A DNA stretch of 64,000 bases from Ignavibacteriales bacterium. GTDB lineage: Bacteria; Bacteroidota; Ignavibacteria; Ignavibacteriales; SURF-24. A program made the translations under genes and the position numbers. The notes beneath the pieces are model-generated. The model made no database searches. It was given only the letters and a program-made list of their open reading frames with translations, and was not told the origin of the DNA. Below are positions 44,680 to 61,446 of the stretch, one piece after another. Location: NCBI GenBank assembly GCA_026390815.1, contig JAPLFH010000056.1, positions 1 to 64,000 on the forward strand. The letters run 5' to 3'. Numbering within the stretch: position 1 is the first letter of the stretch; each line of letters begins with the position of its first letter.

Positions 44680-47600
44680 TTATCTAACAATAGCAAGTTT
44701 TTGAGTAACGTTTTCTGTTTTCCCATCTTTCTTTACGATCACTTTATACAAATAAACTCCATTGGCAACAGTGCTTCCATCCTGATCTTTTCCATCCCAA
44801 TTAATTCTATTGAAATTAATGCGCAGCGGATATTGTCTTCCGTCAATTTCTCTGATCAGTCTTCCTGCGACTGTGTATATTTTTATTTTTAATTCATCAG
44901 GAAATTGTGTAAGAATAAAAGTAAAATCTGTTTTGTCTTTAAAAGGATTAGGATAATTATATACATCAATAAGTTTTAAATCATTAGAAACCTGAAAAGT
45001 TTTTTCGTATCCCGGTCCGTTTTCTAAATTCCCAATTATATTTTTGCCAAAGACTCTAAAAGTATGTTCACCATCATTCAATGTTGGAAGATACCTGAAA
45101 ATAATTTTTCGCTTAATTGTATCCGAATTAATATCAAGCTGGGAATAGCTTACCTTCTCTTCATCAAGAAAGAATTGAACTGCAGAAGTGTCACTAACAG
45201 AAAACCAGACAGGATAAGTCAGAGTCATTTGAATGTTAGGAGATGGGGAAATAAAATCACCATCAGAAATAGATACGCCATCAAACGTAACATTTACGGA
45301 AGCCGATGAAACAGATGTTTTCGTTGTATCCCTTTTAACGATGAAAGGAATCTCATAAATATTATTGTCCTTGTATAATTCTCTTACTTTACCTTCTGAA
45401 TCAATTGAAATTTTAAATTTCATATTACCGTAGTTATCATATTGATTACTCAGATAATTATACTCAAAATACTTTCGGCTCATAGAATCCAACTTAACAA
45501 CTAAAGAATCCATTAAAATTCTTTGCGAGTTATCCGGTTTGACCAAATCGACTTTTACCTTAAAACTATCAGCCTGTGATTCGCCAACATTATAAACATA
45601 AAATTTTAGTTTAGTACTATCACCTTGAATGAGAGAATCTTTAGAAACGGAAACAACCTGGTAGTTAGTGACAAGTTCTGGAAGCATATGAAATTTTACA
45701 CTTAATGATGACAAATTGGGGGAAATGGAATCTGAATCAGTTTTAAAATTTGATAGAATTTTAATTTTTGGATAAACCTTGGCGTCAATAAAACTTAAAT
45801 TTGCAGCATTGTTATTTAATGATAAAAAATTCAAAGTATCAACAATTCCATTATCTCTTATCCCTAGTGGACGATAAGAACTAATGAGTTCATTACTAAC
45901 TAATTGATTTACTGAAAGTGAATCCCATCGCCCAACTGGTCCGATTTCAGAAGATAATAGCGAACCATTTTTATTCGGTAAATAAAAAGTTGTATCAATT
46001 TGTACTTTTCCTTTAAATGGTTGGGAATAGGCTTCAGGGACTGAGCCTGGAAATGCTCCTTTTTTCCCAATGATTGCCCAGGAACCACCAAATGTTAAGC
46101 TATCAATAAACTTACTTCCAAAATTTTTAATTAGGTTTTTTAAAATTGGAGAGGAAACACTTCCTTCATTTGACACCGCTATTATAACGGTAAACTTATC
46201 TGAGAGAGTATTTAAAAAATTTATATAATTATTGATTTCTGTGGCTCCTCCGCCCAATAAATCAAAATGTCGATAACCTTTAAAAGCAAAACTACTATCA
46301 TCAAATAAACAGATATGGTGACCTCGCAATGTATTTTCTGGAATATAGCTATTTCCATTTTTCTGAATTAGAGCCGAATTACCATCATAAAAACCAGCAG
46401 AGAGAGCGGAAAAAGCAACAATACTTGAATCAAATTCGATCCCCGTTTTTTGATATTTCAAATTTGCTAAAGTTGTTCTCGAGAAAGAAAGACTATCACT
46501 CAATAAATATTTACTCTCTTTCGTTTTAATAAAAGAAAAGAATGAACCAAATGGAGTATTTCCAACAATTTTTGCTCTTGCCCAGTACCGTTTGTTATTT
46601 TCAAAATCTGCAATACTAAGTGATGTAATTAATGTATCTAAAGTTTTAAATAGAGTTCTGCTGTTTTTAAAATTTTCATTGGTTGCAAATTCCATTTCTA
46701 AAGAATCGCTCAATTGTTTACTGCTTGGATTAAATAATCGCAAAGTATTACCCAATCCATTTTCAACAGAATTAAGAAGCGATGTTTTTATTGTTGAACC
46801 AACTACTAAATATTTAACAGTTACAAAATTATCCATTTCAGACAACTCATCAATTGAATTTTCAGCATCCAGTTGAATGGTCAATACATGTTCACCCGGT
46901 TTCTTTCGAATTGGAATTGATATTACTAAAGAGTCTGAAAATTTTGGTAGAGTTTTTTTTAACGATAAGCTAAAATTAGATGAATCATTTACAGCATCTT
47001 TTATAACAATCGTAAAAGAATCACTAGTAACTTTACCATAGTTATAAAATTTAATAAAAATTGAGAGAGACTCCGTGAGATCAGATGGATTTGCAGATTT
47101 TAAATGTATATCCGCAGCAGATATTGATAAGTTCGCTTTGTTAGGAATCGGGAGTCGTGCAATTGGATCACCAATTAGTGTATTGGTCAGAGCAAATAAT
47201 TGGTAAACCCCTGAACTACCATACGTCTGAAGCATGGTTAATTTTGCTTGTTTTAGGGCTTCACTGATTGTGTATATTGAATCTTTCAAAACTTTTTCAT
47301 AAAATAATTTTGGAGCTAATAATGATGAGGATAAAAATCCAAGAGAGGAGTTTCCGATATAAGCAATTGCTTCCCCTTCATTAGATGTAACAAATAGTTG
47401 CGAGAAAGAAGTTACATCAGGTTCAGCAAACCGAGCTGTTGAACAACCAAAATCTGTTATCAAAGGATTTCTATTTACATTATTATTTAATTGTGAAGCC
47501 TGTGTAATTGAGTTGTCCCATGTTTGAGTCCCACTATGCCCTAAATAAGAAATAATAACTGCTCCATCATTAATAGTTTTTTGAAACTCACCTTCTGTAT

Positions 47601-49992
47601 AGGGACCAAAATTCGTATTAGGGTTAATGGTTTTATAAAAATGTTTTTGAATTCCGCCAACAGGAGGAGGTGAAACAAAATTATCGATAACATAATTATT
47701 GACTTCACGAAGTTGATCCAACTGACTCTGATTATCGCCAGTCCCACCAGAAAAAAAGATAAATCGTTTATTCCAACTATCAAACCCTTTAGAAATATAA
47801 TTAATATGTTTATTCATGTAGTAGCTTAGTTCTTGCTCAGAAGTTACCGGTATTCTCCCAACATTCATTTGAGGTACATATGCTCCCGTTGTATCCCAGG
47901 TTACAAACCAATTATCGCTTACAGAAGCACCAAAGGAAGGAACGAAATTATATTTAGGCGGAATATTCATAAATTTAGTTTTATTCCCATGATAATCATA
48001 GGTAGCTCCGCCAATTAAACAAACATATTCCGGATAGGGAGATTGCCAATAGCTATGAGTAGCTTTTAAAAAATCTTTAATAGCTTCTGGGTTAAAATAA
48101 CCATAGGCAAACTCGTCGTAAATGTCGTCAACATCAATTACTTTTGCATTAACATTATAACTATTTGAAATAAAAGAGGCGTAATCGTTTGTTTTGGAGA
48201 TAAACTTTTTATTAGTAATTGCAAGATAATCTGCATGATTTTGTGAGTTTCTTAAGTTGACAAACTGCTTTACGTAATAAAACTTAGGTGTTTGGATTTT
48301 ATTTTTATTAATTAAAATAAACTTATTTTGGTTTGTTAATGTATCAAAGAAAATAATTTCGTTGTTACTTCGTGTTAAATTATATTTCTTAAAAGATCCG
48401 CCATATTTCCAAACAACAATTGAATCACTTAAAACATTTGTAATTTTAATTCCTTTAATGGCCGAAGACAAATCAATAAAAGGAAAGGAAAATATCAGAG
48501 AATCATTATAAGTCATTACCCATCTTGGATATTCTACTTCGTACCAATCGAAAGCACAAGTATTTAAACTTGCAGTTGTAGTGAAGGAATGAATTTTTAA
48601 TGAATTATTTCCATCATTTAAATCTTTCACAGGATATTTTCCTCGAAGGATTTTTTGACCATATTTATTAATATATCCCGAATCTTGTCTTTCTGCATTA
48701 TTAACCGAAATAGCTAAAAGGTGGGCGTTCTGAGATATATTTGAAGCATAATCTTGAAGCCTGGAAAATACATTAACAGTTCCCTCAGAATATAAATTAG
48801 AAATTGCAAATGTATAATTTCGGGTCCCAACGCCTAGTTGATTATCAACCCAAGTCTTATTCTCATACCAAAAAGGCATTTCTCGTCTAACTTGATCTGC
48901 CATTGAAAAATCAAACCAATTATTTATTTCGTAATGAATAACTTCATTATAGTATTTTAAAGTATCTGAACTTGGACTTGCCGATTCATTATCTCCAATT
49001 ACCACATGCTTACCATTTTCTCCATTCCATGTAAACCAATAAATAGTTGTATCCGAGTACCTATCAATATATTCGTTATAGGGTTCTCCAAAAATATTTA
49101 AATCACGGTTCTTACCACCCATATTGCGTTCACCAACAAATTCGATATAATCATTTGGATCGAAAGAATTATCTGCTTCACCCGAAACAAAAATCGGAAT
49201 TTCTTTCCCCTTATTTATAAGTTTAAATGATTTAGGACTAACGGAAGAAAAATTAAAATAATAATTCAGGTCACTATACCTTAATCGATAAATGGCATTT
49301 TTAGCAACACCAATTTTGATATAATTTGCATTATAATCAATCCAATCGTCTGTTGAATCATTTTCAATAAGGATATGGTTGCCAAATTTGTTATTGTTAT
49401 AATTGATTTTACTTTCTGATATAGAATTTAAATTGTTATTAAAAGAGAAAGTTGCGGTAATGTTGTTTGGATAAATGATTTCCAAACGGAATTTTAAAAT
49501 TCTTCGAATGTTTCTCTTATTGGGATCAAAAATAAAAGGAGAAATTGAAAGGTGAAGATAACTTTTACCGTCATTTATTAATTGACCATTTATTAGTAAG
49601 AATTTTGTATTGTAATATTTTGGAATCGATGTATTATATTCATAATGGAATATTTTTTGATTATCAAACGTAACCGTTGGATTTATCTCCGGTGATGCTG
49701 CAATTTGTTCTTCATTTTCAATAGTGAATTTCACAACTGGATTGGAGTTTGTTTGAATAGGAACAAATATATCTGAAACTGGTAAGTTAAATTGTTCCGA
49801 CTTCGATTCATCGAAAGGGTAATCAAAAATTAATTTATTTTGACCAGCAATCTGTTTTAGGTTAAAATTAAAATCATTTTGATAGTACAAAATATGTTTG
49901 TTTTCTTGAATTTTTTCCGAAATAAATTGAACTTGTGAGTGTAAAACCGACATAGTAAATAGTAATGCCAGGAAAAGAGTAAATTTTTTCAT
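44680..49992 (-). CDS. Large C25 (gingipain-type) cysteine peptidase with T9SS sorting domain
   Basis: 1770 residues with a signal peptide (MKKFTLFLALLFTMSVLHSQ). The N-terminal 500 residues resemble the prodomain region of C25 peptidases. The peptidase domain shows YVCLIGGATYD, MNVGRIPVTSEQELSYYMNK, the catalytic His in ISYLGHSGTQTW (H819) and Cys in TDFGCSTARF (C850), and LIGDPIARL at its end. Next come CARDB-like repeats (SADIHLKSANPSDLTESLSI, HVLTIQLDAENSIDELSEMD, then a second copy near 1500-1590). The end is a sorting domain (VYNYPNPFKDKTDFTFILTQ ... VANGVYLYKVIV). It is much longer than PorU, the T9SS sortase, and shares its family. It could be a surface protease or a PorU-like processing enzyme; the presence of its own sorting domain is compatible with both. 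Confidence 0.88.
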   Translation of the reverse strand: MKKFTLFLALLFTMSVLHSQVQFISEKIQENKHILYYQNDFNFNLKQIAGQNKLIFDYPFDESKSEQFNLPVSDIFVPIQTNSNPVVKFTIENEEQIAASPEINPTVTFDNQKIFHYEYNTSIPKYYNTKFLLINGQLINDGKSYLHLSISPFIFDPNKRNIRRILKFRLEIIYPNNITATFSFNNNLNSISESKINYNNNKFGNHILIENDSTDDWIDYNANYIKIGVAKNAIYRLRYSDLNYYFNFSSVSPKSFKLINKGKEIPIFVSGEADNSFDPNDYIEFVGERNMGGKNRDLNIFGEPYNEYIDRYSDTTIYWFTWNGENGKHVVIGDNESASPSSDTLKYYNEVIHYEINNWFDFSMADQVRREMPFWYENKTWVDNQLGVGTRNYTFAISNLYSEGTVNVFSRLQDYASNISQNAHLLAISVNNAERQDSGYINKYGQKILRGKYPVKDLNDGNNSLKIHSFTTTASLNTCAFDWYEVEYPRWVMTYNDSLIFSFPFIDLSSAIKGIKITNVLSDSIVVWKYGGSFKKYNLTRSNNEIIFFDTLTNQNKFILINKNKIQTPKFYYVKQFVNLRNSQNHADYLAITNKKFISKTNDYASFISNSYNVNAKVIDVDDIYDEFAYGYFNPEAIKDFLKATHSYWQSPYPEYVCLIGGATYDYHGNKTKFMNIPPKYNFVPSFGASVSDNWFVTWDTTGAYVPQMNVGRIPVTSEQELSYYMNKHINYISKGFDSWNKRFIFFSGGTGDNQSQLDQLREVNNYVIDNFVSPPPVGGIQKHFYKTINPNTNFGPYTEGEFQKTINDGAVIISYLGHSGTQTWDNSITQASQLNNNVNRNPLITDFGCSTARFAEPDVTSFSQLFVTSNEGEAIAYIGNSSLGFLSSSLLAPKLFYEKVLKDSIYTISEALKQAKLTMLQTYGSSGVYQLFALTNTLIGDPIARLPIPNKANLSISAADIHLKSANPSDLTESLSIFIKFYNYGKVTSDSFTIVIKDAVNDSSNFSLSLKKTLPKFSDSLVISIPIRKKPGEHVLTIQLDAENSIDELSEMDNFVTVKYLVVGSTIKTSLLNSVENGLGNTLRLFNPSSKQLSDSLEMEFATNENFKNSRTLFKTLDTLITSLSIADFENNKRYWARAKIVGNTPFGSFFSFIKTKESKYLLSDSLSFSRTTLANLKYQKTGIEFDSSIVAFSALSAGFYDGNSALIQKNGNSYIPENTLRGHHICLFDDSSFAFKGYRHFDLLGGGATEINNYINFLNTLSDKFTVIIAVSNEGSVSSPILKNLIKNFGSKFIDSLTFGGSWAIIGKKGAFPGSVPEAYSQPFKGKVQIDTTFYLPNKNGSLLSSEIGPVGRWDSLSVNQLVSNELISSYRPLGIRDNGIVDTLNFLSLNNNAANLSFIDAKVYPKIKILSNFKTDSDSISPNLSSLSVKFHMLPELVTNYQVVSVSKDSLIQGDSTKLKFYVYNVGESQADSFKVKVDLVKPDNSQRILMDSLVVKLDSMSRKYFEYNYLSNQYDNYGNMKFKISIDSEGKVRELYKDNNIYEIPFIVKRDTTKTSVSSASVNVTFDGVSISDGDFISPSPNIQMTLTYPVWFSVSDTSAVQFFLDEEKVSYSQLDINSDTIKRKIIFRYLPTLNDGEHTFRVFGKNIIGNLENGPGYEKTFQVSNDLKLIDVYNYPNPFKDKTDFTFILTQFPDELKIKIYTVAGRLIREIDGRQYPLRINFNRINWDGKDQDGSTVANGVYLYKVIVKKDGKTENVTQKLAIVR

Positions 49993-50078
49993 TTTCGTTC
50001 AAATTAACTTGAAAAATAAGTCAAAATATATCGAAGAATTTTGTATAATGAAAAAATAAAGTTAAAAGAGTTGTAAAT

Positions 50079-50858
50079 TTGAGACATATACTAAACGATA
50101 TCAAGATTTCAACCGGTTCTAAAATATTAGTTTTCGAGGAGGTTGAAAAATTATTAGAGAGAACTAATAACTCTTTAATTATCACCTTCAATCTTGATTT
50201 TCTAAGAATTTCAACACAAAATTTAATTTTCAAAGATATTTGTACAAAAGCTGATATAGTTGTTCCAGATGGTATCGGAGTTACTAGTCTTTTAAGAATG
50301 ATTTATAACATAAAGGTAAATCGAATTACTGGAAATGATATATTTCAGTTTCTTTTAAATTTATCTCGATCTGACCATTTAAGATATGCGTTTATTGGGT
50401 CAGAAGAGAAAGTACTAAGAAAATTGGAATCATATATCGATGACGAATTTCCTTACTTAAAAGAAAAACTTTTTTTTTCTCCACAATATAAATTTGAGGA
50501 ATCAAAGATTGAAAACGAAAAACTTGTAAATACTCTAGTACGCTTTAAACCTGATATTTTATTTTTGGCACTTGGTTGCCCACGACAAGAGATTTGGTTG
50601 TATGAACACATGAATAAAATTGGTGCAAAAATAAATATTGGAATTGGAGCAACTTTTGACTTTTATACTGGATTCAAAAAACGGTCTCCGATTTTTTTCC
50701 AAGAATTAGGATTTGAATGGTTGTGGAGATTAATGTCAGAACCTAAAAGATTGTTTAGGAGATATGTTATAGTTGATATTCCATTTTATTTTAAATCAGT
50801 CATTAAGATTTATACTTCAAATATTCATCAAATATTTAAAAGTAAAAATTGCAACTAG
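50079..50858 (+). CDS. WecG/TagA/CpsF-family glycosyltransferase
   Basis: 259 residues. Signatures of GT family 26: LIITFNLDFLRIS, ADIVVPDGIGVTSLLRM, RITGNDIFQFLL, PDILFLALGCPRQEIWLYEH, NIGIGATFDFYTGFKKRSPI, FEWLWRLMSEPKRLFRRY. These enzymes add N-acetylmannosaminuronate, N-acetylmannosamine or similar sugars to a lipid-linked intermediate in O-antigen, ECA or teichoic acid synthesis. TTG start. It is divergent from the C25 peptidase gene and overlaps the next GT4 gene by 10 bases, so they are translated together. Confidence 0.93.
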   Translation: MRHILNDIKISTGSKILVFEEVEKLLERTNNSLIITFNLDFLRISTQNLIFKDICTKADIVVPDGIGVTSLLRMIYNIKVNRITGNDIFQFLLNLSRSDHLRYAFIGSEEKVLRKLESYIDDEFPYLKEKLFFSPQYKFEESKIENEKLVNTLVRFKPDILFLALGCPRQEIWLYEHMNKIGAKINIGIGATFDFYTGFKKRSPIFFQELGFEWLWRLMSEPKRLFRRYVIVDIPFYFKSVIKIYTSNIHQIFKSKNCN

Positions 50859-51889
50859 ATAAAATTTCACTACTTTATTTAATTAACAGCCTCGATTTGG
50901 GGGGAGCAGAAAAATCTACTATTCTCTATGCGAATAGGTTTATTCATGAACTTCAACACATATCAATTTTTTCTAAAGAAGGATTTTATTCAGAAAAAGG
51001 AATTATAGATCAAAATATTTCTGTCTTTAAAACTTTTAAACCTGGCATACTTAATTTTCTTAAGAATTTGCTGACAATTAATCAAATAATTAAACTAAAG
51101 CAAGTAAACTTATTGGTATACCACCATAGAAAATTTTTCATTTATGCATTTTTAATTTCACTACTATTTAAAAAAGTAAGAATTATTTATGTGGCTCAAA
51201 ACTACTTCAATGATTTTCGTAATAGATTGTTGTTCGCTCATTCATATGTAGCACTAACAGATGAAGTTTATAATGATTTGCATAATCATGGCAAAAAGAA
51301 TATTGTAATTATTCCACATAGGATTGAAATCAATGAAAAGGTTATACATAATTCAGTTTTTAATATAGGTTATGTGGGCAGATATGAAAAGGATAAGGGG
51401 ATAAGTACACTACTGTTTGCGTTTAAACATTTAATTATAAAATACCCAAAAATTAAATTAATTTTTAGAGGGAAAGGAAAACAAGAGCCTCTAATTAAAA
51501 ATTTTGTATCAAAAAACAAACTTGTAAAGAGTGTAATAATTGATACACCTAAAATGGAAATAACAGAAATATATAAAGATATTGGAATACTTGTTCTTCC
51601 TTCTCTAAAATTTGAAGGACAAGGAATCGTCTTGATAGAGGCTATGAACTTGGGGATTCCAGTAATCGGTTCAAATGTTGGAGGGATTAAAAATGTAATC
51701 AAAAATAATTATAATGGATTATTGTTTATAAGTGGGAATTTTACTGATTTAGTTGAAAAAATAACAAATCTTATTGAAAATCGAGACCTATACCTTTCAT
51801 TAATTACAAACGGAAAAACAGATGTTAAGAATAATTATAATATCGAGCAGACAATTGAGGATTACTATAAATTGTTTAAAAAGATATAA
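50849..51889 (+). CDS. GT4-type glycosyltransferase
   Basis: 346 residues; TTG start overlapping the previous gene. GT-B fold: INSLDLGGAEKSTILYANRF at the N-terminus (donor-independent GGAE motif), VFNIGYVGRYEKDKGISTLL, KLIFRGKGKQEPLI, DIGILVLPSLKFEGQGIVLI (E-x7-E-like region), EAMNLGIPVIGSNVGG. It transfers an activated sugar to the growing glycan on the cytoplasmic side. The sugar cannot be told. Confidence 0.92.
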   Translation: MQLDKISLLYLINSLDLGGAEKSTILYANRFIHELQHISIFSKEGFYSEKGIIDQNISVFKTFKPGILNFLKNLLTINQIIKLKQVNLLVYHHRKFFIYAFLISLLFKKVRIIYVAQNYFNDFRNRLLFAHSYVALTDEVYNDLHNHGKKNIVIIPHRIEINEKVIHNSVFNIGYVGRYEKDKGISTLLFAFKHLIIKYPKIKLIFRGKGKQEPLIKNFVSKNKLVKSVIIDTPKMEITEIYKDIGILVLPSLKFEGQGIVLIEAMNLGIPVIGSNVGGIKNVIKNNYNGLLFISGNFTDLVEKITNLIENRDLYLSLITNGKTDVKNNYNIEQTIEDYYKLFKKI

Positions 51890-51951
51890 ACCTTTTTCAA
51901 TTATTATAATTTTCATGATGCTAAGATTTTTAACTAATTTATAAATACCAG

Positions 51952-52692
51952 TCATTTCTTCACAACATATGTGTAGCTAATCCAATTTGGACCAGAATTT
52001 CTGTTCTCAATTATTTCCAATAAATTCAAAGAAGAGTTTATTATAAATGTTTCAACCTTTTCTTTACAAATTGGATGAAGTTCCATCCTGGACTTTAGTT
52101 TCCCTCGAAATTGCAGAAAAAATGGATAAATCCATTTATGAACAAAATCATTATTCCATAAAGCATCAAATATTTTATTCGTCATCCTATCTGGTAATTG
52201 AAAAACAAGTATTCCTCCTTCGCACAATACTCTACTGAACTCTTTCAAGTAATTAAATGTCACATTTTTAGGAATATGCTGCAAAACAATATTTGAATAA
52301 ATAAAACTAAAAGATTCATCTAGAAAACAGGAGAGGTTGAGTTGTTGATTTAAAATATACCTTGCATTATCTTTCTGATTAAACTTAATTGATAGTTCAA
52401 TCATTTTGGGTGAGATATCCAAACCAGTAACAAAGTCAAAGTAATTTGTTAAAGGTTGAGTTAATCTTCCCACTCCACAACCAAAATCTAACGCATGGAA
52501 TTTCTTATAAATAATATTTTTTCTACCAAGAAAATTCATTAAGTCTTGTATTTCATTTACACCGGTAGCAAAGAATTCATCAACCTCCCATTTCCTTCCT
52601 TTTTTTTGTGGACAAGACAAAATCGCCCAAAAAGGATCCTCTTCAGCTAATTCCTCCCAAATTTTTTTTAAACGATTTATGTCTACATCCAT
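51952..52692 (-). CDS. Class I SAM-dependent methyltransferase of the polysaccharide locus
   Basis: 246 residues: FHALDFGCGVGRLTQPLTNY (motif I), FDFVTGLDISPKMIELSIKF, SFIYSNIVLQHIPKNVTFNY, LKEFSRVLCEGGILVFQLPD. It probably methylates a sugar or lipid intermediate; the position at the end of the glycosyltransferase run suggests O-methylation of the repeat unit or chain capping. It follows the GT2 gene by 9 bases. Confidence 0.88.
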   Translation of the reverse strand: MDVDINRLKKIWEELAEEDPFWAILSCPQKKGRKWEVDEFFATGVNEIQDLMNFLGRKNIIYKKFHALDFGCGVGRLTQPLTNYFDFVTGLDISPKMIELSIKFNQKDNARYILNQQLNLSCFLDESFSFIYSNIVLQHIPKNVTFNYLKEFSRVLCEGGILVFQLPDRMTNKIFDALWNNDFVHKWIYPFFLQFRGKLKSRMELHPICKEKVETFIINSSLNLLEIIENRNSGPNWISYTYVVKK

Positions 52693-52701
52693 TCCTATTT
52701 C

Positions 52702-53664
52702 TTATTGTTGCAAACTAGCATTTAATAATTCGCGGAGTATTTTGTTTTCTTTGCTAAAGTAGTGAATGAAATAATTTATTCGAAACCTAAACCTAACTTC
52801 CTTGAACTTAATAAATACTTTATTAGGTAAAAATGAAACCACAAATGCTAATAAAAGTCTGTAATCAAATAAAATTTTTGTTCCAGTTCTACACCAATAT
52901 TTTCTTGCCAATGTAGTTGAACCATAAAAATACTCTCGCCAACCTTTTATTTTGTTTACTTCATTTATATTCGTTATCGAAAAGTTAAATCCTAAGTCTT
53001 GATAATATGGCTCTTGAATTTTATAAATCAATTTATGTTTTATTGTTAAGCTAGCTCTAGAAAGAGAATTTCTCCTATATCGGACAAAACTAAGTACTTC
53101 CGGAATATTATAGAACCTAATACTACCTTTTATTCTTAGCCAAAGAGAATAATCTTCAAAAGCATTACCAGAATAGCCCCCATATTTAAAAATTATATTT
53201 CGATTATACATACAACCGGAATGAGGAATGGTTGAATACAACGCTAAATTTTTAACTATTTCTTCATAATTCTCAGGAGTCTTAACTATATACTTAATTT
53301 TTTCATCTTTGAAAACAGCATACCAGCTAGCGATTATTTCTTCATCAGATTTTTGGATTAGAATTTTCAATTGCTTATTAATTCTATTAGGATGTGCAAT
53401 ATCATCCGCATCCATTCTTGCGATTACATCGTATCTTGCTCTGTTCAGTCCATAATTTAGGCTATCAGCAAGACCCGAATGTTTTTTTTTAATATAATTA
53501 ATTCTATTATCAGAAAAGCTTGAAATTATCTTCTGTGTATCATCCGTAGAACCATCATCTATAATTAAAAATTCGAAATTACAAAAAGTCTGTCTTAAAA
53601 TGCTATTAATTGCTTCCTGAAGAAAGGGTGCACAATTATAGGTTGGCATTAATATGGAAACCAT
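52702..53664 (-). CDS. GT2-type glycosyltransferase
   Basis: 320 residues with the GT-A signature at the N-terminus: MVSILMPTYNCAPFLQEAIN, FEFLIIDDGSTDDTQKIISS, ADSLNYGLNRARYDVIARMD, ADDIAHPNRI (DxD-like). Start taken at ATG 53662-53664, just after the stop of the upstream gene (53666); the frame to 53691 would overlap that gene by 26 bases. It adds one sugar of the repeat unit. Donor and acceptor are unknown. Confidence 0.92.
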   Translation of the reverse strand: MVSILMPTYNCAPFLQEAINSILRQTFCNFEFLIIDDGSTDDTQKIISSFSDNRINYIKKKHSGLADSLNYGLNRARYDVIARMDADDIAHPNRINKQLKILIQKSDEEIIASWYAVFKDEKIKYIVKTPENYEEIVKNLALYSTIPHSGCMYNRNIIFKYGGYSGNAFEDYSLWLRIKGSIRFYNIPEVLSFVRYRRNSLSRASLTIKHKLIYKIQEPYYQDLGFNFSITNINEVNKIKGWREYFYGSTTLARKYWCRTGTKILFDYRLLLAFVVSFLPNKVFIKFKEVRFRFRINYFIHYFSKENKILRELLNASLQQ

Positions 53665-53665
53665 T

Positions 53666-55232
53666 TTACACAAACTTCCAATTTTTACCATTAAAATAAA
53701 TAAATCGATAATTCATAAAAGTATCCGGAATTTCAAATTGAATATCACTAAATCCCCTTCCACTTTTATGAGGTAATACCTTCATATTCAGTAATGTATT
53801 GCAATAGACATTTTTCTTATCAATATTCAAATAAACTAAATTGTCATAGGATTTGATTCTTAGTGTTTTATTGATTCTTTCAACTCTAATAACAGGTAGA
53901 CGAAATCGTTTTGGATCATAATAATTAAAGGAAATACTTGTAGAAAAAGGTAAATCTTCAATATTCTTTACATATCCAAACTCATGAGAATTAATATAAT
54001 ATAATTGATACTTTACTAACTCTGGAAATTCACTAGTAACAATTAGATATTTTGAATTAGTGTTTATTAGATTCTTAAGCTCAAATATGGTTTCTTGTTG
54101 ATTCCTTCGGATTTTTAAATCATCCTCTATTCTAAGATAAAATGATATAACAACAAATGCTATGAATACAGGTATTATTACTTTTATAAGATTGGTGTTA
54201 ATAGGTTTACAAATAAAGAAATAATATGTGCTTAATGATAACCAGAAAACAAATATGGTATTTATTCTTATACTTCCATCAGCAAAAAATCTAGGGAATC
54301 CAATTATCATAACCAAAAGAAGAAGAAAAAACATTTTTTTAAATTCTATTTTTTTTTATGAATATAATTATTAAAAGAATAGAAATTATAGATGACACCA
54401 ATACATATGCTTTATTCATAAGGAAATAATTATAAATATTTTGGGAACAAATTGGGATTAAAGTATGGATAAAAATACCAATTATTGTAAAAGGTTTTTT
54501 CCAGATATTGTTAAGAAAAACAGACGATTCAGCAAAATACAAATTAGTAACAACTGTTATAAAGAAAATTATTCCTGATAAAGCCAGTACTAAAAAAGCT
54601 TTTTTGTTTAAACATATTTTCTGTGATGTAAATGAATAATATAAAAATAATAGTAGTAGAAATGGCAGATGAGACCCTGTTTGTTTTGCTCCGACTGATA
54701 AAATATAAAATAGAAGAAACAAAAATAGTTTTCTATTATTTTGATCCAGACAGTATTGAAAAAAAGACCTTAATGATGCTATATAAAATAATAAATATAA
54801 TAGTTCTGTTCGATCACTAATCCAATTATTCCAATAGAGAACATCTAAATGAAAGGAAAAAAGAAATATTGATAAAAAACAAATTCTATAGTTTAACTCT
54901 ATCTTGAAAACTTGACATATAGTTTCGAAAAATCTGAATAAATTATACACCAATATTAGGTGATAAATTAAATTTGTTAACTTAATAAGGAAAGGATTAT
55001 TCCCCCAAAGTTGGTAGTCCAGCCAAAATGTAAAATACGATACTGGACGTAAAAAAAGGTAAAAGGGGTAGTCTGATTTAAGTAGAAAAAATTTTTCTGG
55101 ATTTAAATGGATAATAGTAAATAAAATATAGTCATCGGTATAAAAACCAGGGTAAAGAAAAATGATGTAAGAATACACTAAAAGATTTAACAACAAGATA
55201 GTTAATAATGACTGCCTCCTATTTGTTAGCAT
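53666..55232 (-). pseudogene. GT-C-like membrane glycosyltransferase split by an A-run frameshift
   Basis: Two adjacent open frames (54339-55232 and 53666-54334) form one protein. The first holds nine or so membrane spans and a GT-C-like first loop YPGFYTDDYILF plus RPVSYFTFWLDYQLWGNNPF and LIKLTNLIYHLILVYNLFRF. It ends FIKKNRI-stop right after a run of nine A (minus strand; 54350-54358). With one A less, the reading continues IKKIEFKKMFFLLLLVMIIG into the second frame, adding further spans and a soluble C-terminal part (DLPFSTSISFNYYDPKRFRL). This looks like a GT39/PMT-related sugar transferase or polymerase. It is split by one base in a homopolymer: a mutation, a phase-variable switch or an assembly error. 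Confidence 0.8.
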
Positions 55233-55248
55233 ATTTCTGCTTTCTTAA

Positions 55249-56310
55249 CTACAATGATTTATAAATTGACAAAGTTTTTTCAACAGAAATACTTAATGAA
55301 AAGTTTTTCTTTATATCCAAATAAAAATTATTAATAAGTACTTGAAGAGAATTGAAATTATTTACAGCCTTTTCAATTTTTCCTGATAACTCTAGGGTAT
55401 TCTGCTTCTTAAAAATGAATCCATGAAAATCATTTATAAAGAAAGGGAATAATCCTCTAAAATTAGAACTAATTATAAGGTTTTTACACATTCCCGCTTC
55501 TAAAATCGACATTGGAAATCCTTCAGCATCCCAATAACTTGTAAAAACAAAAATATCTGTTTCTTTTAAAAAGCGAATCAGTGGTTCAAGTATACCAAGA
55601 TAAGTAACATTAATTTCCTCTTCTTCAATTCGTTTTACTAGTCTTGTTTTCTCGCTCCCCTCACCCGCTATATAAAATTCAGCCTGGTTGAAAATATTTT
55701 TTGGTAGTTGCTTTATGGCATCCAGATACAGATCAAATCCTTTCTCTGGAATTAACCTACCTGCATTAATTACTCTCAACAAATTATTCCTCTTAGGCAA
55801 ACTAACATTTTGTTCAATTATCCCGTATCTGATTGTTTGAATTCTATTTCCATTATTAGTATAGTTTAAACATATATACTTTTTTATATCATCGTTAACA
55901 ACAATCTGATATTCGCTTGCCAATAATTTTAATTTGTTTGTTTTCTTAAAAAAATTATGATGTGTTTGAACAGTTTTAATTTTAGTTAACCTTGAAACAA
56001 ACCTGGCTATATTTGCAGCATAATAATTTTGAGAATGAATAATAGAAGGAGAATATTTCCTTATAAATAAGAATAATTTAATAATTGCTATAAAGAATCT
56101 TAAATAACTTTTCCTTTTTTCACTGAAGATATTATCAACGTATATTTGCGCATTTATTTCTTGAAAACGCTCAACAGCATCTCCTCCTGAACATAAGATA
56201 TAATAATCGAATTCAGTTGATTTATTTTCCAATAAAAAATTATATAAATAACTCGATATACCACATGTAAATTTTAAATCATCTGTAAGTATTAATACTC
56301 TGTTAGTCAT
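55249..56310 (-). CDS. GT4-type glycosyltransferase
   Basis: 353 residues, GT-B fold: RVLILTDDLKFTCGISSYLY at the start, RVINAGRLIPEKGFDLYLDA, AEFYIAGEGSEKTRLVKRIE, TDIFVFTSYWDAEGFPMSIL, EAGMCKNLIISSNFRG. It retains the E-x7-E-type motif of retaining GT4 enzymes. Its stop is 17 bases before the split GT-C gene and its start overlaps the next GT2 gene by 8 bases, so the whole run is one operon. Confidence 0.92.
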   Translation of the reverse strand: MTNRVLILTDDLKFTCGISSYLYNFLLENKSTEFDYYILCSGGDAVERFQEINAQIYVDNIFSEKRKSYLRFFIAIIKLFLFIRKYSPSIIHSQNYYAANIARFVSRLTKIKTVQTHHNFFKKTNKLKLLASEYQIVVNDDIKKYICLNYTNNGNRIQTIRYGIIEQNVSLPKRNNLLRVINAGRLIPEKGFDLYLDAIKQLPKNIFNQAEFYIAGEGSEKTRLVKRIEEEEINVTYLGILEPLIRFLKETDIFVFTSYWDAEGFPMSILEAGMCKNLIISSNFRGLFPFFINDFHGFIFKKQNTLELSGKIEKAVNNFNSLQVLINNFYLDIKKNFSLSISVEKTLSIYKSL

Positions 56311-57241
56311 TAATCAATCCAAGTTTCTTTTTATATCCAAAATATAATTGCTCGAATCCTTGCATAATATATCTTCCTTTCAAGTAAAACTTTTCAGAAC
56401 TATAAAAAACGATCCTTAAAAATCTTGTAAAATAAGATATAAGACTTAATATTTGAATAATTCGGTTTAGTCTTTGATTATGAATGCAATGAAATTCTAT
56501 ATAAGTAAGATTTCTTATCCCATACAAATGTTTCTTTATTTCCCATTTGGAGTTTTGAATTCCTAATTGATTTATCGCTTTTTTAATTAGAATGGAAAAT
56601 GGGATTAAGTATATTTTTCCAAATTGATTCAACCTAATACAGTATTCCAAATCATCATACCAAATGAAGAATTTTTCATTAGGAAATCCAACCTTATGAA
56701 TGGCATCTTTGTTAATCATCATTCCTTCAAAAGTAGCTGCAAATATGGTTCTAGGTTTATTTTCAATCTCACTTTCAGGGATTTTTATTTTATACCTTAA
56801 GTCATGCCTAATTTTTGAAAAATCTGTACAAATAATCTCTCCAATAGCTTTTTCCTGAGAAACTTCTCTGATTCTTTTGCTAGCAACTGCCGATATATTA
56901 TCGACTTGATCACTTAAAAAACAAATTAAATTAAACAAGGTGTTCTTTTCTGGAATCACATCATCATCCATACACCAAATCCAATCATATCCTTTTTCAT
57001 AAGCTGTTTTAATCCCAGTGTAAAATCCACCGGCACCCCCACTATTCTCTTGAGAAATAATTGTTAAATCGTTTTGTTCATTCAGCCATTCGAAGGTACC
57101 ATCTGTACTAGAATTATTTATAACTATAATTTCATCTAATTTTCTTGTTTGTTTATTTATGGAATCTAAACATTGTTTTAACAATTCTAATCTGTTATAA
57201 GTAACTATAACAGCAGCTATTTTGTAATTGTCCACATTCAT
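56303..57241 (-). CDS. GT2-type glycosyltransferase (galactofuranosyltransferase-like)
   Basis: 312 residues: AAVIVTYNRLELLKQCLDSI, IIVINNSSTDGTFEWLNEQN, SGGAGGFYTGIKTAYEKGYD, and WIWCMDDDVIPEKNTL with the DDD metal site, then NEKFFIWYDDLEYCIRL. The GGAGGF and WxMDDD motifs are shared with GlfT-type galactofuranosyltransferases. Its ATG overlaps the stop of the UDP-galactopyranose mutase gene (ATGA), a natural pair: the mutase makes UDP-Galf and this enzyme may use it. The donor assignment is an inference from motif and context. Confidence 0.88.
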   Translation of the reverse strand: MNVDNYKIAAVIVTYNRLELLKQCLDSINKQTRKLDEIIVINNSSTDGTFEWLNEQNDLTIISQENSGGAGGFYTGIKTAYEKGYDWIWCMDDDVIPEKNTLFNLICFLSDQVDNISAVASKRIREVSQEKAIGEIICTDFSKIRHDLRYKIKIPESEIENKPRTIFAATFEGMMINKDAIHKVGFPNEKFFIWYDDLEYCIRLNQFGKIYLIPFSILIKKAINQLGIQNSKWEIKKHLYGIRNLTYIEFHCIHNQRLNRIIQILSLISYFTRFLRIVFYSSEKFYLKGRYIMQGFEQLYFGYKKKLGLIND

Positions 57242-58329
57242 ATATTTCTAAATGAAATTCTTAAAGTATTAGCCACCACCTGATCCATATTGTAATACTT
57301 ATATTCTGCTAACCTTCCAACAAAAAGAACATTCTTTATACTTTCGATAAGCATTTCATACTTTTTATAAATATCAAAATTCCTTTTATTTGGTATCGGG
57401 TAATATGGTTCACCTTCCTCCTGAAAATATTCTTTGGAAATTGTCGTTCTATCGGAATTTTGATCATAAAAGTATTTGTACTCTGTAACCCTTGTAAATT
57501 CAAATGATGGTTCAACATAATTTATAACTGCTGCTTCCTGGTATTTTTTACTTTCTATTTTTTCAAATTCAAACCTAATAGACCTATATGGCAACTTTCC
57601 AAACTCATAATCAAAAAAGTAATCAATCGGTCCTGTATAAATTATTTTATTAAATTTTACATTATTCATAATAGATTTATAATCAGCGTTTAATAACAAT
57701 TCAATATTTTTATGATTCAGCATCCTCTCGAACATTTTTGTGTAACCATCTTTTGGCATAAACTGGTACTTATCAGTAAAATATCTGCAATCGTCATTTA
57801 CTCTAACCGGAATTCTTCCACAGACTGTAGCAGCTAATTCTTTTGGTTCTAATCCCCACTGTTTTTTAGTATAATGTTTGAAAAATTTCTCAAACAGGTC
57901 ATTCCCAACCTGGTTCACAATAATATCTTCCGAATTTAAAATTGGATACCGTTTTTCTCTCACTTTTTCGTAATAAGCTTTTGCTTCATCTTCGGTTTGC
58001 AAATTCAAATTATAAAGTTTGTTTAGTGTGATTCTGTTTATTGGAATCGGATAAAGTTCTCCATCTAGCTTTGCCAATACCTTATGTTCATAAAATCTCC
58101 ACTCAGTAAATTGAGAGAGATAATCAAATACTTCCTTACTGTTGGTATGGAAAATATGCGGTCCATATCTGTGTACTAAAATTCCATGTTCATCAAATTC
58201 ATCGTATGCATTTCCGCCAATGTGGTTTCGCTTTTCAACAACCAAAACTTTTTTATTAAGCTGACTTGCAATTCTTTCAGCCATAACTGAACCGGCGAAA
58301 CCGGCGCCAACAATCAGGAAATCATACAT
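57238..58329 (-). CDS. glf: UDP-galactopyranose mutase
   Basis: 363 residues. Flavoenzyme that converts UDP-galactopyranose to UDP-galactofuranose. Seen: FAD-binding FLIVGAGFAGSVMAERIASQ, VVEKRNHIGGNAYDEFDEHG, VHRYGPHIFHTNSKEVFDYL, FKHYTKKQWGLEPKELAATV, GRIPVRVNDDCRYFTDKYQF and the C-terminal VGRLAEYKYYNMDQVVANTL. The length is typical. It means the surface glycan most likely contains galactofuranose. It overlaps the flippase gene by 8 bases and the GT2 gene by 4. Confidence 0.97.
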   Translation of the reverse strand: MYDFLIVGAGFAGSVMAERIASQLNKKVLVVEKRNHIGGNAYDEFDEHGILVHRYGPHIFHTNSKEVFDYLSQFTEWRFYEHKVLAKLDGELYPIPINRITLNKLYNLNLQTEDEAKAYYEKVREKRYPILNSEDIIVNQVGNDLFEKFFKHYTKKQWGLEPKELAATVCGRIPVRVNDDCRYFTDKYQFMPKDGYTKMFERMLNHKNIELLLNADYKSIMNNVKFNKIIYTGPIDYFFDYEFGKLPYRSIRFEFEKIESKKYQEAAVINYVEPSFEFTRVTEYKYFYDQNSDRTTISKEYFQEEGEPYYPIPNKRNFDIYKKYEMLIESIKNVLFVGRLAEYKYYNMDQVVANTLRISFRNI

Positions 58330-59596
58330 TAACTTTTCTGAAAATGTGAATCTTTTTACTTACAAGCATTAAGTACATATACAGTGTTACTATAGTTTCC
58401 GTTAATAAAACGGAAACTGCGGTTCCAACGTGAAAAAATAATGGAACAAGAATAAATGAAGCAATCAAATTTATTAAACTAGAAATAACTATTACTCTTG
58501 TAAACTCTTTTTTCATATTAATGTTCAACATAACCTGAATTCCAAAAATATTGCTCAAAAATATTAGAAAAGGAAGAAAAGAAATAATCTGCAATACAAT
58601 TATCGAATTGAAATATCTTTCTCCCAACACTACTAATATAATTTGTTTGGCAAAGACCAACAGGCAAAGGCTAAATAAAAAACTAATCACTCCAAAATTC
58701 TTTAAGATTTTCCTAATAAAAGCAAATCCCTCACCCATTGATTTATTGAAAAGACTTGAAACATGTGGATAAATTGTTTGCGAAATCGTAGAGTAAACAT
58801 TTTGAACAGCACTTCTGATTTTATCAGCTGCAGAAAAATATCCAACAACAGTATTGCTGGCAAATAACCCAAGAATAAATGTATTAGAGATTGTGTATAA
58901 ACTAATTGCAATTGTTGAAAGGAAAATATACCAGCCTTCTTTTAATTGGTAAACTATTTCTGATTTTAATGGGAATTGGAACGCCATTTTGAATACGAAT
59001 TTTATAATAATAATACTCACAACCCCGGTCAAAATAAAACTAAGACTGTTTAAGAAAATCAACAAATGATAATCGGCTGGTTTTATTATAAGAATGAAAA
59101 TTAAAATGGTTGTAATGAACTTAAATGTAAAATTCAACAACGTAATATATTTCATCTTTTCTATACCTTGAAAGAACCAGACAGGGAAAAGGACATTTCC
59201 AAGAACAACACCAAAGCTTAGAAAATATGTTAAGTAATCACCTCTGAATAATGGAATTGAAATTATTAAAATAGTTATGATAACCGAGCTTAATAAAAAA
59301 AGACTTGATTTTATTATAATTACCGAATTGAAAATTTGCGCTATTTTTTTTTTATCATCCCGATGAATGGAAATTTCTCGGGTTGCTGATAGATTGAATC
59401 CATAATCAGTTAGTATTCCAAAATAACCCACAAATGCCCCGGCAAAATTAATTAATCCAAATTTTTCTGGACCCAAAACTCTTACCAAATAAGGAAATGT
59501 AATTAGTGGAAAAATATAATTTGATATTTGCAGAATTGATAATGCTGTGAAATTCTGGAGTAATTCTCTGTTTTTTTTAATTTTCTTTATTATCAA
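58322..59596 (-). CDS. Wzx-type polysaccharide flippase
   Basis: 424 residues with about 12 membrane spans. Opening: LLQNFTALSILQISNYIFPL, ITFPYLVRVLGPEKFGLINF, the classic N-terminal motif of Wzx/RfbX proteins of the MATE/MVF-like superfamily, followed by LTDYGFNLSATREISIHRDD. It moves the lipid-linked repeat unit across the inner membrane. TTG start with no evident ribosome site. It heads the operon with glf and the glycosyltransferases. No clear Wzy polymerase gene is visible nearby, unless the split GT-C-like protein has that role. Confidence 0.93.
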   Translation of the reverse strand: MIIKKIKKNRELLQNFTALSILQISNYIFPLITFPYLVRVLGPEKFGLINFAGAFVGYFGILTDYGFNLSATREISIHRDDKKKIAQIFNSVIIIKSSLFLLSSVIITILIISIPLFRGDYLTYFLSFGVVLGNVLFPVWFFQGIEKMKYITLLNFTFKFITTILIFILIIKPADYHLLIFLNSLSFILTGVVSIIIIKFVFKMAFQFPLKSEIVYQLKEGWYIFLSTIAISLYTISNTFILGLFASNTVVGYFSAADKIRSAVQNVYSTISQTIYPHVSSLFNKSMGEGFAFIRKILKNFGVISFLFSLCLLVFAKQIILVVLGERYFNSIIVLQIISFLPFLIFLSNIFGIQVMLNINMKKEFTRVIVISSLINLIASFILVPLFFHVGTAVSVLLTETIVTLYMYLMLVSKKIHIFRKVNV

Positions 59597-59703
59597 ACTT
59601 GTACAATTTCCGGTTTACTTAACTCACCTTACACAAAATAATAGAATTGTATTACGATTCTCTGAATCGCTTAATCTATTCACTTCAAATTATTCATTCA
59701 ATA

Positions 59704-59722
59704 AGCGAAACTGAGTTTCGCT
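59704..59722. repeat. Small hairpin upstream of the flippase gene
   Basis: 8-bp arms AGCGAAAC / GTTTCGCT with a 3-base loop, in the gap between the heptad-repeat ORF and the flippase gene. No clear T run on either side, so it may be a processing hairpin rather than a terminator. Confidence 0.5.
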
Positions 59723-59771
59723 CTACATTTTTGAGTAAGGTTAGTTACTTGCTTTAATGTTTTATTGATCC

Positions 59772-60122
59772 TTAAGCTAAAAACAGAGTTTTTATCCCAC
59801 AAAAGCCGTTGGAATGTTTATTAATGTCATTGGAAAACCTATAAATATCTTTAGAAAGTTTATTAATGTCTTTGGAAGGTTTATAAATGTCTTTCGAAAG
59901 TTTATTAATGTCTTTGGAAGGTTTATAAATGTCTTTCGAAAGTCTTTTAATGTCTTTGGAAGGTTTATAAATGTCTTTCGAAAGTCTATTAATGTCATCA
60001 GAAACTTCATTCAAGTTATTAAAAATTTTACTCGACTCATAAAAATCTTTACTAAAGCCATTATGAATTTCATCACTTACCATGCATCCAGTGCAACATT
60101 CCGAAGTTACATCATCCTTCAA
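59772..60122 (-). CDS. Small protein with seven-residue repeats (coding status uncertain)
   Basis: 116 residues from a TTG 13 bases after the stop of the peptidase gene. The N-terminus is Cys-containing (TSECCTGCMVSDEIHNGF). The middle is about nine heptads of the form x-(L/P)-S-K-D-I-x (for example RLSKDIY KPSKDIN), which could form a coiled coil. The C-terminus is short and hydrophobic (CGIKTLFLA). The 21-bp DNA repeat is also open on the plus strand (59814-60323, INVFRKF-type repeats), so repeat expansion alone could keep a frame open. No strong ribosome site. Function unknown; a second in-frame start is ATG at Met14. Confidence 0.45.
   Translation of the reverse strand: MKDDVTSECCTGCMVSDEIHNGFSKDFYESSKIFNNLNEVSDDINRLSKDIYKPSKDIKRLSKDIYKPSKDINKLSKDIYKPSKDINKLSKDIYRFSNDINKHSNGFCGIKTLFLA
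59812..60000. repeat. 21-bp tandem repeat, nine units in an A/B alternation
   Basis: Nine 21-bp units alternate between type A (GAAAGTTTATTAATGTCTTT + G) and type B (GAAGGTTTATAAATGTCTTT + C), i.e. a 42-bp higher-order repeat. Units at the edges are more diverged. The region encodes the heptads of the minus-strand ORF. Confidence 0.9.
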
Positions 60123-60135
60123 CCATCATCCATTT

Positions 60136-61446
60136 CTATCTCAACCAAACTTCTGGATTTTGGTTTACTCTTTCACTCCATATTTCAAAGTGAAGAATAT
60201 TTCCTTCAAGGCTTTCTTCTACAGTTCCGATGGATGTGCCGGATAATACTTGCGTCCCTTCACTCACAAAGATTTCTGAAAGATGCCCATACACCGTACG
60301 GTAATCATCCTTGTGTGAAATAATTAATACACTGCCAAATCCCGGCAGCCAGTTTACTGATGAAACTATTCCATCAGCCACAGCTTTAATAGTTTTATCT
60401 TTAGCAGTCTTTATATCAACACCATAATTTAACGTAACGGTGTTAAGACGTACATTTTTTTGCTCCCCGAATTTACGAATTATTTTCCCATTGTCAACAG
60501 GCCATTTTAACATTCCTTTTAAAGCAGCAAACGAAGAAAGATTTTGCGTGTAATCAGTTTCCACTAATGGAGCTTTTTCTGTTTTCAATTCCGATTTGGG
60601 TTTCCGTTTTGCAAGTTCTCTTTCCCGTTTCAATGCTTCAGCTTTTCTTTTTTCCTCTGCAATTAAATTTGCAATAATTCTTTTTATTCCATCTTCAGAT
60701 TTCCTTTTCAAATCGATTTCATCTTTTATTGCTTCCTTATCATTTTTCAACGAAGCCAAATATGTTCTTCTTTTCTCTATCTTAAGCTTAAGTTCTTCTT
60801 GCTCCTTCTGTTTTTGATCGGCAATTATTTTTTTTTGTTCCAATTCATTTGTTAAAAATATTCTTGCTTCACCCAACTCTGTTTGGCTATCTTTTAACTC
60901 AGTTAAATCTCTTTTACGTTGTTCGGAAATCTTATTTAAATATTTATACCTAAGCAGTGCCTGGTTAAATGATTCCGATCCAAGGATCATTGCAAGTTCA
61001 TCTTGTTTACCATATTTATATAGGTAAACAACATACTTAGCATAATTATCCTTAAGCTTTTTAATTTTTGCTTCAATCGATTTAATTTGTTGTTCAATAT
61101 TTATTATCTGCCTTTCTTTGTTCTTTTCTTCATTACGGATTGTATTTATAATTTTATTTAAAAGAAATTTTTGCTTGTTAAAATTTTCTATTACCTCAAT
61201 TGATTTCTGTTCATTTTGAGTTTTATTTAGTAATTGATTTTCAAGCTGCTTTATCTCTGCTTTAAGTTCACTCAACTCCCCTTTTTTCTGGAGTAATTGA
61301 TTTTTTACCTGGGCAGAAATTGGAATAATAAAACTGTTCAACAACAAGCAGCAAATTATAATTGATAATCGAAAATTTGCAAATAAAGGCAGGTGAAGTT
61401 TATTTGGATAGTTTAAGCAATCATTGTTAGGGAATGAATAAAGCAT
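60136..61446 (-). CDS. EnvC-like murein hydrolase activator (coiled coil plus degenerate LytM domain)
   Basis: 436 residues. A hydrophobic leader (LSIIICCLLLNSFIIPISAQ) is followed by about 230 residues of coiled coil (KNQLLQKKGELSELKAEIKQ ... EKRRTYLASLKNDKEAIKD) and a C-terminal M23/LytM fold (MLKWPVDNGKIIRKFGEQ, ADGIVSSVNWLPGFGSVLII, VYGHLSEIFVSEGTQV, ILHFEIWSERVNQNPEVWL). In active M23 enzymes zinc is held by HxxxD and HxH. Here the first His is N340 (NYGVD) and the first His of HxH is I417 (ILH), while D344, H388 and H419 remain. So it is probably not a peptidase but an activator of amidases at cell division, like EnvC and NlpD. It follows the DUF4292 lipoprotein gene by 54 bases. Confidence 0.9.
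   Translation of the reverse strand: MLYSFPNNDCLNYPNKLHLPLFANFRLSIIICCLLLNSFIIPISAQVKNQLLQKKGELSELKAEIKQLENQLLNKTQNEQKSIEVIENFNKQKFLLNKIINTIRNEEKNKERQIINIEQQIKSIEAKIKKLKDNYAKYVVYLYKYGKQDELAMILGSESFNQALLRYKYLNKISEQRKRDLTELKDSQTELGEARIFLTNELEQKKIIADQKQKEQEELKLKIEKRRTYLASLKNDKEAIKDEIDLKRKSEDGIKRIIANLIAEEKRKAEALKRERELAKRKPKSELKTEKAPLVETDYTQNLSSFAALKGMLKWPVDNGKIIRKFGEQKNVRLNTVTLNYGVDIKTAKDKTIKAVADGIVSSVNWLPGFGSVLIISHKDDYRTVYGHLSEIFVSEGTQVLSGTSIGTVEESLEGNILHFEIWSERVNQNPEVWLR

Follow-up and report, generated by a model that had tools for sequence, protein, structure and literature searches.

A putative GT-C-type membrane glycosyltransferase gene in a polysaccharide cluster of an Ignavibacteriales bacterium is divided into two open reading frames at a run of nine adenines. 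Judging from the sequence and its alignment with relatives, we regard it as certain that the two frames are parts of one protein's gene, split at this run. The explanation that we favor, with somewhat better than even confidence, is a real and recent one-base slip at a slippery tract that formed by chance, a slip that may be reversible and leaky rather than the work of a specialized switch. The window analyzed here, a stretch of 64,000 nucleotides, belongs to a genome (G000) of 4,520,490 bases in 59 contigs that is 99.96% complete.

One glycosyltransferase gene in two frames

Reading the sequence directly, we find nine T on the plus strand at positions 54349 to 54357, that is, A9 on the minus strand from which the gene is read. 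The upstream frame, ORF1, enters this run and meets a stop codon six codons later, while the frame of ORF2, which differs from it by a one-base offset at the run, opens shortly ahead of the nine A. Together, the two halves (297 and 222 to 226 aa) cover a single protein of 526 to 559 aa in relatives from end to end. Aligned with the intact 526-aa relative from genome G046 (L002/L095), residues 9 to 294 of ORF1 correspond to residues 10 to 298, and residues 3 to 223 of ORF2 to residues 302 to 523; the matches being consecutive, the seam must be the A9 run. A sequence-only reading had proposed that removing one A would unite the two frames, and this seam-exact match to relatives with a single frame bears it out.

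Full-length homologues were recovered from six distinct loci (L095, L096, L006, L092, L097, and L098), and two more (L093 and L094) are cut by contig ends yet continuous across the seam. All eight homologues that read through the seam carry 3 to 7 A there, none has a run of at least eight, and the split form was not seen in any relative examined. Apart from the break, the gene appears undamaged, with no further stop or frame change in either half over the ∼520 codons checked. The run lies ∼57% along the gene. The ATG of ORF2 follows 4 bases past the stop of ORF1, no ribosome-binding site is evident by eye between the two frames, and scans for promoters and terminators gave chance-level results.

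As to the identity of the protein, neither ORF1 nor ORF2 matched a Pfam family, PMT_2 was matched weakly in two of six family members (best E 0.0017), and a sequence search against solved structures returned no hits. We therefore turned to the fold of the intact relative L095, whose structure model (522 residues; mean pLDDT 77.7, pTM 0.81) stands in for the window protein and falls below a pLDDT of 50 at residues 294 to 323, which include the seam. Structure comparison placed Pmt4 highest (Z 17.8 over 317 residues, rmsd 4.3), followed by Pmt1-Pmt2 and the oligosaccharyltransferases and then by ArnT and arabinosyltransferases, with all top ranks taken by GT-C enzymes; Foldseek returned PglB as its best match (E 5e-4). 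The model of the relative has the multi-helix membrane fold of this class. In GT-C glycosyltransferases, the first extracytoplasmic loop bears an acidic motif, and a pair of aspartates, D33 and D34, is indeed invariant in six of six aligned sequences.

Gene order provides an additional line of evidence. Four related loci (L092, L095, L096, and L097) have a C25 peptidase behind the intact GT-C gene, and an M23 peptidase is found on the opposite side in all three loci scanned there (L092, L095, and L096). Locus L095 shows the order flippase-Glf-GT2-GT-C as in the window, then GT2, GT4, WecG, and the C25 peptidase. This synteny identifies the split gene as an ortholog, not a random fragment. Taken together, homology, the relative's modeled fold, and synteny show the gene to encode a predicted GT-C membrane glycosyltransferase of a polysaccharide cluster, in line with the GT-C-like polysaccharide membrane transferase that had been called from the sequence.

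In the window, the polysaccharide cluster spans positions 44680 to 61446 and is bounded by the PorU-like C25 peptidase and the M23 peptidase (Table 1). Between the flippase and M23 genes, positions 59812 to 59996 hold a tandem repeat of 21/42 bp with open frames on either strand, whose translation yields SKDIYKPSKDIN-like repeats.

Table 1. The split gene, its long A runs, and the surrounding cluster, in window coordinates
Feature	Coordinates	Strand	Remarks
PorU-like C25 peptidase	44680..49992	-	far edge of cluster
WecG/TagA-type glycosyltransferase	50079..50858	+	
GT4-type glycosyltransferase	50849..51889	+	
Methyltransferase	51952..52692	-	
GT2 glycosyltransferase	52702..53691	-	downstream of split gene
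A9 in intact neighboring GT2 gene	53482..53490	-	in frame; internal control
ORF2, putative remaining membrane core and C-terminal domain of the same protein	53666..54334	-	222 aa if started at its ATG; frame stays open as far as 54346; from homology
A9 run, seam of frame shift	54349..54357	-	in a short, lysine-rich loop flanked by two hydrophobic segments
ORF1, putative N-terminal part of GT-C-type membrane glycosyltransferase, conserved DD near first loop	54339..55232	-	297 aa; from homology, conserved columns, relative's fold
GT4-type glycosyltransferase	55249..56310	-	upstream of split gene
GT2 glycosyltransferase	56303..57241	-	
UDP-galactopyranose mutase (Glf)	57238..58329	-	
Wzx-type polysaccharide flippase	58322..59596	-	
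A10 in intact flippase gene	59344..59353	-	in frame; internal control
M23 peptidase	60136..61446	-	near edge of cluster

Long A/T runs and broken genes across the genome

The 4.52-Mb genome contains 197 A/T runs of exactly nine and, by a count made from the run listing, 39 distinct longer ones. To judge how genes cope with such runs, we relied on 306 genes from contig C56 and the first 280 kb of contig C6, fetched regardless of the runs they carry. While A8 was as frequent as expected (72 seen, 76.8 expected), A9 was mildly avoided (18 versus 27.5, sd 4.4; ratio 0.65) and runs of at least ten were under-represented about eightfold (2 versus 17.4). One of these two coding-strand runs of at least ten is the A10 of the flippase gene. 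A larger sample, partly picked for A9 sites and to be read accordingly, gave 45 A9 against 57.7 expected (ratio 0.78), and 48 A runs of at least nine lie within genes in 828 kb of sampled sequence. In this genome, then, a mild avoidance of A runs in genes begins at nine. For T, avoidance on the coding strand sets in at a length of seven, with T9 at 2 versus 8.2 expected (ratio 0.24) in the 306 genes. That T runs should be avoided more strongly than A runs hints at an RNA-level or translational cost, because replication slippage ought to be strand-blind.

Within the cluster, three A runs of at least nine were seen where synonymous-codon shuffling predicts 2.46; by this measure there is no enrichment. 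When genome-wide avoidance is taken into account, the expectation drops to 1.25 (P 0.13), an excess that relaxed or positive selection could account for but that is suggestive at most. By itself, the A9 at the seam is unremarkable for this genome.

How often do such runs break genes? We scanned 228 distinct A/T runs of at least nine, out of about 236, with their surroundings; by the scan's rule, 123 lay within one open frame, 6 were junction-like with no other open frame covering them, and 99 fell into neither class. Junction-like sites, also those inside open frames, were judged by eye. With a 70-codon limit combined with filtering by codon usage, the window gene was the sole true break, and looser limits added two, for a total of two firm and one probable gene splits among the 228 runs. 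The other junction-like sites proved to be gene boundaries (pepD-like, rpsB/tsf, xseA/xseB, and hypB/hypF; by eye) or to involve implausible frames.

The second firm split concerns a GT2-like gene interrupted at a T9 at C24:122358 (L087:2158-3512 = C24:122158-123512), next to miaA-like and prfA-like genes named by eye from the sequence. It is conserved across the order, with a match in 28 of 29 relatives (or in 29 of 30 genomes once our own is counted). In 27 of these 28 relatives, the best match lies in an open frame of 380 to 483 codons, versus 386 here; in the 28th, G025, the gene is spread over two contigs. Its N-terminal motif VIPAI.EY, severed in our genome, is in frame in the four loci, out of seven from relatives, that a pattern search caught, and none of the four relatives' loci read at the break site has a long T run there. 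The probable third break, in a CoiA-like nuclease gene, occurs at an A9 at C40:76847 (L199:3747-5092 = C40:75807-77152), one of the scan's 123 single-frame runs. With matches in 2 of 59 genomes, our own included, it offered no usable relative and stays a likely candidate. In both the GT2-like and the CoiA-like break, the frame offset has the opposite sign from the one in the window gene. The breaks in the conserved GT2-like gene and, probably, the CoiA-like gene indicate that 9-mer breaks are not peculiar to polysaccharide genes. Against a mere chance slip, two of the three breaks hit glycosyltransferase-type genes. Among runs of six to eight bases in the 828 kb, 49 junction-like entries inspected by eye contained no split gene save a decayed transposase.

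Origin and consequences of the break

Could the break be a product of assembly or consensus, with the majority sequence truly having another run length? That breaks are confined to long homopolymers, the 6- to 8-mers having yielded only the transposase, speaks for this, as does the break in a conserved gene elsewhere in the genome. However, the contigs bear the mark of short reads. Among 72 contig ends compared (66 once three contigs with N ends are dropped), 12 end pairs share terminal sequence, which is exactly 141 bases long in eight of them, 140 in two, 136 in one, and 135 in one; no overlap among the ends compared exceeds 141 bases. The largest default word of MEGAHIT is 141, and a constant maximal overlap of this length points to a de Bruijn short-read assembly. 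At homopolymers of nine bases, the consensus of short reads can be trusted; a miscall at the A9 is unlikely, while the assembler may perhaps have dropped a minority path there. The 123 scanned long runs that sit within one open frame add to the case against an artefact, and a generally error-ridden assembly in homopolymers was rejected with so few of the 228 runs broken. Overall, we consider an artefact quite improbable.

Under the explanation we prefer, a recent slip at a chance-formed tract, a lysine-coded A tract in the sequenced population would have changed its length by one base. As read from the frames, ordinary translation would halt after 297 residues, within a loop between membrane helices, leaving a truncated membrane protein that is presumably inactive. 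The tract itself appears to have arisen by chance in a region of 28% G+C, because it is absent in relatives and the shuffles predict such runs, and the 3 to 7 A at the seam of eight homologues argue that it has not been kept as a switch. Homopolymers of about nine are slippage-prone in many bacteria. From the avoidance statistics and published cases, the tract is probably a mutational hotspot that can revert and is probably also mildly slippery for RNA polymerase, such that some full-length protein may arise. Reversion should be more frequent here than that of a point mutation, by ∼1000-fold according to the estimate in PMC2831843 for one poly(A) tract. A single interruption at a homopolymer in an otherwise undecayed gene also fits a gene that is not long dead.

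The sequence-only reading had gone further, suggesting that the gene may be phase variable. In this scenario, the run would be a selected contingency locus, where slipped-strand mispairing toggles the transferase and with it a surface glycan, for example under phage attack. Several points favor the idea: an otherwise intact surface-polysaccharide gene carries a coding-frame run at which a change in length breaks the protein, the same cluster has an A10 in the flippase gene and an A9 in the adjacent GT2 gene, and a precedent exists among O-antigen genes in PMC3441752, where wbeL (A8) and manA (A9) of Vibrio cholerae O1 are presented as phase variable. Yet the run is missing from the relatives, all eight of which have intact genes without a run of at least eight at this place, one of the two findings that the sequence-only reading itself had named as refuting it, and the cluster has no more runs than synonymous shuffling provides; the run is neither kept nor in excess. 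Moreover, a conserved gene outside polysaccharide clusters is broken alike, and the position of the run past the middle of the gene departs from the survey in PMC2831843, whose excerpted results place A/T tracts closer to the 5′ end of genes. The phase-variable reading is not supported by these comparisons, and, judged against the genome as a whole, the ordinary reading is the likelier one. We rate a selected contingency locus as rather unlikely. A limited literature search found no paper on phase variation in Ignavibacteria; if a switch did operate here, it would be a homopolymer switch on a surface glycan beside a type IX sortase in Ignavibacteriales. A possible product of the cluster is the anchoring glycan for type IX secretion cargo. 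The further step, that the cluster makes this attachment glycan and that slippage in the A tracts of the GT-C, GT2, and flippase genes varies the anchor, we consider highly improbable; if true, a single homopolymer would alter the surface display of many secreted proteins together.

Two other readings concern the way in which a split gene might still be expressed. Transcriptional slippage at A9, yielding a mixed mRNA pool, could be the normal expression route of split genes, making this one a "pseudo pseudogene." Consistent with this, the homologues have one ORF and the seam is a 9A, the very length at which this genome begins, mildly, to select against A runs in genes; the stronger avoidance of T9 than of A9 on the coding strand fits an RNA-level cost; and the core gene broken likewise suggests tolerance. 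There are published cases as well: PMC1088944 (Baranov et al. 2005), as far as the sections available go, describes how a change from 8 to 9 A splits the frame and argues that such pseudo pseudogenes give product, and RNA-polymerase slippage is argued in the corresponding part of PMC3017870 for Blochmannia genes with frameshifts in poly-A tracts. Against it stand the 48 in-gene A runs of at least nine, which imply that slippage at A9 is neither very costly nor very frequent, and the lack of a conserved run, which purposeful slippage would be expected to show. As the normal route of expression, we hold it to be unlikely. Barely credible, finally, is a two-piece enzyme, in which ORF2 would re-initiate at its ATG and the halves would join in the membrane. 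The closeness of that ATG to the stop of ORF1 and the placement of the seam in a short loop flanked by hydrophobic segments would suit such an arrangement, but no relative examined has the split form and a ribosome-binding site between the frames is not evident by eye.

Comparison with known systems

If the break is no more than a chance slip, the present case implies for AT-rich genomes that a gene split at an A9 should be called neither dead nor phase variable without reads or RNA. It also provides a testable set within one organism, comprising the GT-C gene, the core GT2-like gene, and the CoiA-like gene, for telling replication from transcription slippage at 9-mers.

With the GT-C enzymes Pmt4, ArnT, PglB, and OST, the intact relative has its fold in common, although identity is only ∼10% and the window protein has no Pfam family. 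The wbeL and manA genes of V. cholerae O1, as portrayed in the relevant parts of PMC3441752, resemble the gene described here in that a one-base change in a short poly-A tract truncates a surface-glycan protein. In that species, however, all 37 strains keep the wbeL tract and manA has been shown to revert, whereas the run studied here is absent from relatives in other genera.

Closer parallels come from genes broken at A runs in which polymerase slippage has been invoked. Like the pseudo pseudogenes in the accessible text of PMC1088944, the GT-C gene is one ORF in relatives and two here, with a 9A seam, in a genome in which A runs are avoided from nine; the gene is known to us from DNA only, and the organism apparently lies outside those covered in that text. 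Blochmannia, as characterized in portions of PMC3017870, is a reduced endosymbiont, in contrast to the 4.5-Mb genome considered here, but shares with it an AT-rich genome in which several otherwise intact genes are broken at A/T runs.
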